Of a stretch of 34,582 nucleotides of DNA, positions 1,290-32,526 are shown in pieces; the first letter of the stretch is position 1; each line of letters opens with the position of its first letter. Below the pieces are notes generated by a model. It saw only the letters and a program-made list of their open reading frames with translations, made no database searches and was not told the origin of the DNA. A program made the translations under genes and the position numbers. This DNA comes from Thermodesulfovibrio sp. (GTDB lineage: Bacteria > Nitrospirota > Thermodesulfovibrionia > UBA6902), in NCBI GenBank assembly GCA_026982355.1, contig JALSHG010000002.1, positions 1 to 34,582 of the forward strand, read 5' to 3'.

Positions 1290-1442
1290 GAAAAAAATAA
1301 AGGATGCTGACCCATATTTAGGGGACATGGCTGAAGTAAAAGGTTGGGCTCTCAGCATAGGCAGGGAAAACCTTTTTACTCAGGTGTCAGCATCCTTTAT
1401 GAGAAATATCTCCTGGAATCTGTCTGTTTATTAACTACCGTC
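1290..1442 (-). ncRNA. Candidate structured small RNA, about 150 nt
   Basis: On the minus strand a strong promoter (see 1449-1500) would start a transcript near 1442. The transcript folds into a three-way junction. A 15-bp closing stem (1297-1311 with 1386-1400) has no mismatch. A 14-bp stem with two single-base bulges pairs 1331-1345 with 1369-1383. A small hairpin CCAT/ATGG pairs 1312-1315 with 1327-1330. On the minus strand the closing stem is followed by TTTATTTTTTTC, so the whole fold can act as an intrinsic terminator. I could not match it to SRP RNA, tmRNA, RNase P or the riboswitch classes I know; a GCTGAGAG in the large loop recalls the TPP riboswitch, but the other conserved TPP segments are absent. 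There is no minus-strand gene downstream, so a trans-acting small RNA is more likely than a riboswitch. A divergent 6S RNA is not excluded. Confidence 0.55.
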
Positions 1443-1448
1443 TTATCT

Positions 1449-1500
1449 ATAATACTACTTATGAACGATTAATGCAATAGATGAAAAAAAATTTTTTTAC
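1449..1500 (-). promoter_or_regulatory. Strong promoter for the minus-strand small RNA
   Basis: On the minus strand TTGCAT (-35, 1472-1477) and TATTAT (-10, 1449-1454) are separated by exactly 17 bases. Directly upstream of the -35 lies an A-run/T-run stretch (1483-1498) resembling an UP element. Transcription would start near 1442. Confidence 0.55.
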
Positions 1501-32450: not shown

Positions 32451-32526
32451 GGGCGGTTAGCTCAGTCGGGAGAGCGCCACGTTCGCAACGTGGAAGTCGG
32501 GGGTTCGAATCCCCTACCGTCCACCA
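32451..32526 (+). tRNA. tRNA-Ala (anticodon CGC)
   Basis: 76 bases including an encoded CCA. Acceptor GGGCGGT pairs with ACCGTCC and contains the G3-U70 wobble that identifies alanine tRNAs. The D arm is GCTC...GAGC, the anticodon arm is CCACG-TTCGCAA-CGTGG with CGC as anticodon, and the T arm is GGGGG-TTCGAAT-CCCCT (one G-T pair). The discriminator base is A. Confidence 0.97.

Follow-up and report, generated by a model that had tools for sequence, protein, structure and literature searches.

A multi-copy family of probable structured small RNAs in UBA6902-type Nitrospirota with a C-rich motif complementary to transposase gene starts

The locus and its features

The window analyzed here is a stretch of 34,582 nucleotides from Thermodesulfovibrio sp. 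(GenBank assembly GCA_026982355.1, contig JALSHG010000002.1, positions 1 to 34,582). The element under study is flanked by a gene for a DnaJ-PilZ protein (325-1059) and by a gene (about 1636-2505) whose product we take to be mannosyl-3-phosphoglycerate phosphatase-like. Both flanking genes lie on the plus strand, so the minus strand at the locus carries no gene; an earlier sequence-only reading had likewise seen none downstream on that strand. The window also contains a tRNA-Ala (CGC) gene at 32451-32526.

That reading had proposed an orphan minus-strand small RNA with a strong promoter and a three-way-junction fold. Its two main stems are present (Table 1): a mismatch-free 15-bp closing stem, P1, with 74 nt between its arms and TTTTTTTC following on the minus strand, and a bulged second stem, P2. 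The minus strand folds with −44.6 kcal/mol (z = −4.6), and 0 of 200 shuffles were as good; the plus-strand fold is less distinctive (z = −2.5). The earlier reading did not have a second inverted repeat, at 1226-1258, which runs into a stretch of T on its own strand and may act as a back-up terminator.

The −35-like and −10-like boxes have the 17-nt spacing claimed for them, and the segment that holds them is almost identical in the sister species G001. To call this promoter strong was an overstatement: the −10 box and the spacing are fair, but the −35 box matches at only three of six positions and the pair scores under the scan threshold. From these boxes, transcription is predicted to start near 1442, giving a transcript of ~155 nt with a core of ~105 nt.

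TABLE 1 Features of the candidate small RNA locus, in window coordinates
Feature	Position	Strand	Basis
sRNA core	1296-1400	−	Covariance-model match, 107.7 bits
P1 closing stem, 5′ arm	1386-1400	−	Inverted-repeat search and covariation
P1 closing stem, 3′ arm	1297-1311	−	Inverted-repeat search and covariation
P2 stem, 5′ arm, bulged	1371-1382	−	Fold and covariation
P2 stem, 3′ arm	1332-1343	−	Fold and covariation
Large P2 loop, UUUUCCCUGCCUAUGCUGAGAGCCCAA	1344-1370	−	Missing in short subclass
Near-invariant motif CAGCCAUGUCCCCU, proposed seed, P2-P1 junction	1320-1333	−	Conservation and ensemble pairing
U-tract after P1, terminator-like end, possible Hfq site	1290-1297	−	Sequence; family-wide T enrichment and G depletion
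5′ leader of window copy	1401-1442	−	Differs between two sister species
−35-like box TTGCAT, 3/6 matches	1472-1477	−	Sequence; segment kept in G001
−10-like box TATTAT, 5/6 matches	1449-1454	−	Sequence; kept in G001; 17 nt from −35 box
Second terminator-like inverted repeat and T-run, possible back-up terminator	1218-1258	−	Sequence; kept in G001

Structure, distribution, and inheritance of the family

The element is not an orphan. A search with blastn against 100 relatives found it in most genomes of the window's GTDB family, and 32 copies were used to build a covariance model. The model identified 116 copies; 30 of the 37 genomes of the UBA6902-type Nitrospirota family have at least one, as does one genome elsewhere in the phylum. 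The 30 genomes hold 1 to 13 copies each, with one in the window's own genome (G000). The named contigs that contain the core are from metagenome-assembled genomes or bins, UBA6902 among them; nearly all carry the label Nitrospirota, and a few are given as "Deferribacteres" or simply "Bacterium". Within a sample of 396 genomes of the phylum, the single copy outside the family is a divergent one in G136, a member of another Nitrospirota family, where it lies near a response-regulator-like open reading frame (ORF) (L198:2480-2565); transfer, assembly contamination, and old inheritance are all possible readings of it. Rfam 15 gave nothing relevant at gathering or relaxed thresholds, in agreement with the earlier statement that no known class fits. 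The Rfam 6S RNA model had no match even at E values up to 5, and searches of collections of phage, plasmid, and viral sequences, at the sensitivity applied, did not find the element. It appears to represent an undescribed family of ~100-nt RNAs that, within the genomes searched, is all but restricted to one Nitrospirota family.

Both stems show the compensatory changes that the sequence-only reading had named as support for its fold. Across the 116 copies, 98% of P1 cells are paired, with changes on both sides in 11 of 12 pairs, and 86 to 90% of P2 cells are paired. Changes on both sides were seen in 23 of 25 pairs, and the covariation score was 0.270 against 0.134 for shuffled alignments (reached by 0 of 500), in an alignment that was fitted to the structure and so favors it. 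The signal was lost when the alignment was slid by one column. P1 was also part of the RNAalifold consensus of the unfitted alignment, where 7 of its 12 pairs show change in both arms. The strongly covarying homologues and the fold beyond shuffles establish the element as real. Its strand follows from the mismatches: 64 P1 cells are G-U and 7 are A-C, and because a G-U pair on the minus strand would be an A-C mismatch on the other, selection acts on the minus strand.

The composition of the 3′ end points to the same strand: in the 12 positions after P1, T is dominant and G is almost lacking. Four tandem arrays, with some 5 nt between successive copies, have a long T-run only at the last copy, as expected if each array is one transcript.

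The most conserved part of the family is CAGCCAUGUCCCCU, which sits between P2 and P1. When ensembles were predicted for 100 copies, its UCCCC had mean unpaired probabilities of 0.75 at the U and 0.98 to 0.99 at the four C's. The CCAU that precedes UCCCC can pair with AUGG in 21 of the 100 copies, the window copy among them, and the 5′ side of this pairing is invariant. The small CCAT/ATGG hairpin described earlier therefore does form in the window copy but is a local feature; it was rejected as a conserved element, and the three-way junction falls with it. The target-binding site had likewise been placed wrongly, in the loop at 1346-1368: this large loop is wholly missing from a short subclass of 8 copies, all of which retain CAGCCAUGUCCCCU. 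The motif, and not the loop, is the candidate site, since it is near-constant across copies and its complement is enriched at translation starts.

The closest relative of a copy lies in another genome for 107 of the 116 copies and in the same genome for 9, which indicates old paralogues and not a spreading repeat. Copies track locus orthology; they are intergenic, and their orientation to neighboring genes is not fixed. Recurrent neighbors include PhoU and proteins that we take to be a 215-amino-acid (aa) regulator-like protein (similar to PAS/GAF sensor kinases), a rhodanese-like protein, AroE, and, by our reading of the sequence, a 104- to 115-aa Cys-rich protein. A Cys-rich protein of 103 to 115 aa (CWEFKKCGREPGG), with no Pfam match, adjoins the copies in L071, L068, L078, L179, and L195.

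Sites resembling those of two regulators lie before some copies. FNR-like palindromes (ATGAT-N4-ATCAT) occur upstream of 13 copies and downstream of none (0.09 in shuffles); most stand some 45 nt ahead of P1. Direct repeats of Pho-box-like type occur upstream of 8 and downstream of 1 (0.12 in shuffles). All these counts take in orthologous loci, so that the independent cases are fewer.

Complementary sites at gene starts

Candidate targets were sought by pattern, as the complement of the motif, GGGGAC(AUGG), and the search led to RAYT transposase genes. GGGGAC or AGGGACATGG stands at the start of 31 of the 39 RAYT genes examined in RNA-bearing genomes, against 0 of 31 where the RNA is absent (p = 1.4e-12). 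The RAYT tree shows 11 changes of the motif; across 10 independent pairs, motif and RNA go together about 6 times and are never opposed. Judged from these sequence comparisons, the complementary start site has been gained several times independently in RAYT and is tied to the presence of the RNA. The one exception is a RAYT fragment with the GGGGACATGG site (L434) in a genome that is 78% complete (G046) and in which the RNA was undetected. In several genes the site is preserved though its AUG is not the start of the gene. Since the sites were found by searching for the complement, duplex energies give no independent support.

The GGGGACATGG site was considered as a transposon end and rejected. 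RAYT transposon ends are GGGGTCA and TGACCCC; they are separate from the site (L236, L242, L244, L246, L252, and others) and lie farther out. In RAYT genes with GGGGACATGG, the leader from the left end to the start codon is mostly longer than in those without it. Insertion of RAYT beside sRNA copies was also rejected, as P1 sequence was not found upstream of the sites.

Across whole genomes, AGGGGACATGG is clearly in excess only in company with the RNA: 20 RNA-rich genomes contain it 200 times and its reversed control 41 times, with 77 of the 200 within sRNA loci, whereas 16 genomes without the RNA contain 15 and 10. Many of the sites outside sRNA loci are at or upstream of the starts of genes for ORF6N, NTP_transf_8, DUF1016/YhcG, DUF6946, RadC, RecQ-like, and ComF-like proteins, or fall in short ORFs in the leaders of Lcl_C secreted-protein genes; others are inside ORFs, as chance matches would be. 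The 5′ leaders of Lcl_C-domain secreted-protein genes (L374, L379, L385, L386, L393, and L403) contain a short ORF, or a pair of them, beginning with AGGGGACATGG or GGGGACATGA; NRSQP is the common ending of some, and leader-peptide control of these genes is possible. Complementary sites in the ComF-like, RadC, and RecQ-like genes are found in L383, L365, L382, L367, and L368; the cases are too few for a competence regulon to be claimed.

Hfq is encoded in the window's genome (G000:C77, E = 3.4e-29) and in 31 of the 37 family genomes. Four genomes that are each at least 96% complete (G006, G011, G020, and G024) lack both a detectable Hfq and the RNA; the last three of them belong to one genus. 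This co-occurrence is suggestive only; the family RNAs are probably Hfq dependent.

Interpretation and alternatives

We consider it likely that the locus encodes a minus-strand sRNA of a sibling family whose members block translation initiation through a shared seed, probably with Hfq. P1 would join the ends of the RNA and, with the U-tract, make its 3′ end, P2 would hold the middle, and CAGCCAUGUCCCCU would be displayed between them with CCCC unpaired. Copy-specific promoters, some bearing FNR-like sites and others Pho-box-like ones, may feed several signals into the one common seed. The seed would pair with AGGGGACAUGG, where Shine-Dalgarno sequence and start codon coincide, in the mRNAs of RAYT transposases, of other accessory genes, and of the short leader ORFs of secreted Lcl_C proteins; the sense orientation of the sites and their overlap with Shine-Dalgarno and AUG point to a translational block. 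The family has what marks a sibling sRNA: several related copies in one genome, a conserved unpaired seed with complementary mRNA sites, and an intergenic position with a promoter-like start and a U-tract end, promoters and terminators here being sequence matches. Several observations count against this reading. It is not obviously expected that a transposase should retain a site for its own repression. In the window's own genome no RAYT gene was found, and the sole other exact AGGGGACATGG (C30) lacks a convincing gene start. The RAYT fragment in G046 has the site where the RNA was undetected. For Hfq, G010 has the protein and no copy, and G017 (78% complete) has copies while Hfq was not found in it.

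The copies could instead be DNA elements, REP- or MITE-like palindromes made or once mobilized by RAYT through its action on single-stranded DNA, GGGGACATGG then being a common recognition motif. They are indeed palindromic, intergenic, and multi-copy, GGGGACATGG also lies near RAYT gene starts, and recognition of single-stranded DNA could likewise yield strand-biased G-T pairs. We nevertheless hold this to be improbable. The recent within-genome spread expected of such elements was not seen (9 of 116), and neither was a link to a RAYT gene in the same genome: G000, G001, G004, G008, and G027 have copies while RAYT was not found in them, and G010 and G011 have RAYT and no copies. The RAYT ends occur with or without the GGGGACATGG site, the copies are old and follow orthologous loci, and promoter-like sites stand on one side with the T-run on the opposite side. 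A mobile palindrome was set aside on the inheritance pattern and the RAYT ends.

A little less credible still is a decoy RNA that titrates a protein, as CsrB does with CsrA; the C-rich motif would then be a protein site and not a seed. For a seed the motif has unusual length and constancy, and tandem arrays of copies occur, but a decoy does not predict sense-oriented complementary sites at translation starts only in RNA-bearing genomes, and the CsrA-type GGA of the family is buried in the paired P1 arm. That the element is merely a structured terminator or a cis-acting leader of adjacent transcripts seems very unlikely: neither neighbor nor orientation is fixed, the window copy is opposite in strand to both neighboring genes, and a terminator has no need of a 100-nt conserved structure with an invariant unpaired motif, even if 66 of 107 copies are downstream of a same-strand gene and many finish in a T-run.

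The sibling sRNA reading can be set beside known systems. The sRNAs RsaE, RoxS, and IsrR have an unpaired C-rich stretch able to pair with G-rich Shine-Dalgarno sequences, and the present family has the same. It differs from them (e.g., PMC6435200, PMC5419742, and PMC9410917) in having no Rfam match to those sRNAs, in a complementarity of 11 to 14 nt that includes the start codon, and in the position of the motif in an internal junction. The sibling sRNAs Qrr, OmrA/B, AbcR, csRNAs, and LhrC (PMC4211561 and PMC4132741) share with it several ~100-nt copies per genome, copy-specific promoters, and a common unpaired pairing stretch; the family is set apart by another phylum, no Rfam relation, copy numbers that reach 13, a tandem spacing of about 5 nt, and complementary sites in transposase and accessory genes. 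In art200/5′tnpA of IS200 (PMC12594629) and Asr9/Ssr9 of ISPpu9 (PMC8450116), a small RNA is also tied to the 5′ region of a transposase mRNA, but those RNAs are encoded in or beside the element, whereas the family RNAs are at unlinked, vertically inherited loci. REP/REPIN sequences with RAYT (PMC3116915 and PMC3733652) are likewise intergenic palindromic repeats in RAYT-holding genomes; unlike these 20- to 40-bp repeats, the family members are ~100 nt long, few in number, built of covarying stems, without within-genome spread, and present independently of RAYT. Sibling base-pairing sRNAs are a known kind; what appears new is this family, together with its association with mobile genes, as judged by Rfam 15 and open-access papers, which are part of the literature. 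In the same open-access portion, no described regulatory RNA was found for the phylum Nitrospirota.

With so many copies and orthologues, comparison places structure, strand, and seed on unusually firm ground. That transposase lineages gained a complementary start site repeatedly and independently, almost only alongside the RNA, is the kind of comparative signature of RNA-mRNA pairing that is rarely seen, and it opens to direct test the question of how a host and its resident transposases settle their regulation. As a tentative and broader possibility, which we would not yet call likely, the family may be a host-encoded, multi-copy RNA system that restrains mobile and newly acquired genes: an invariant seed would act against a standard start site, AGGGGACAUGG, repeatedly acquired by transposases and accessory genes in this lineage, and several environmental signals would jointly set the expression of those genes.
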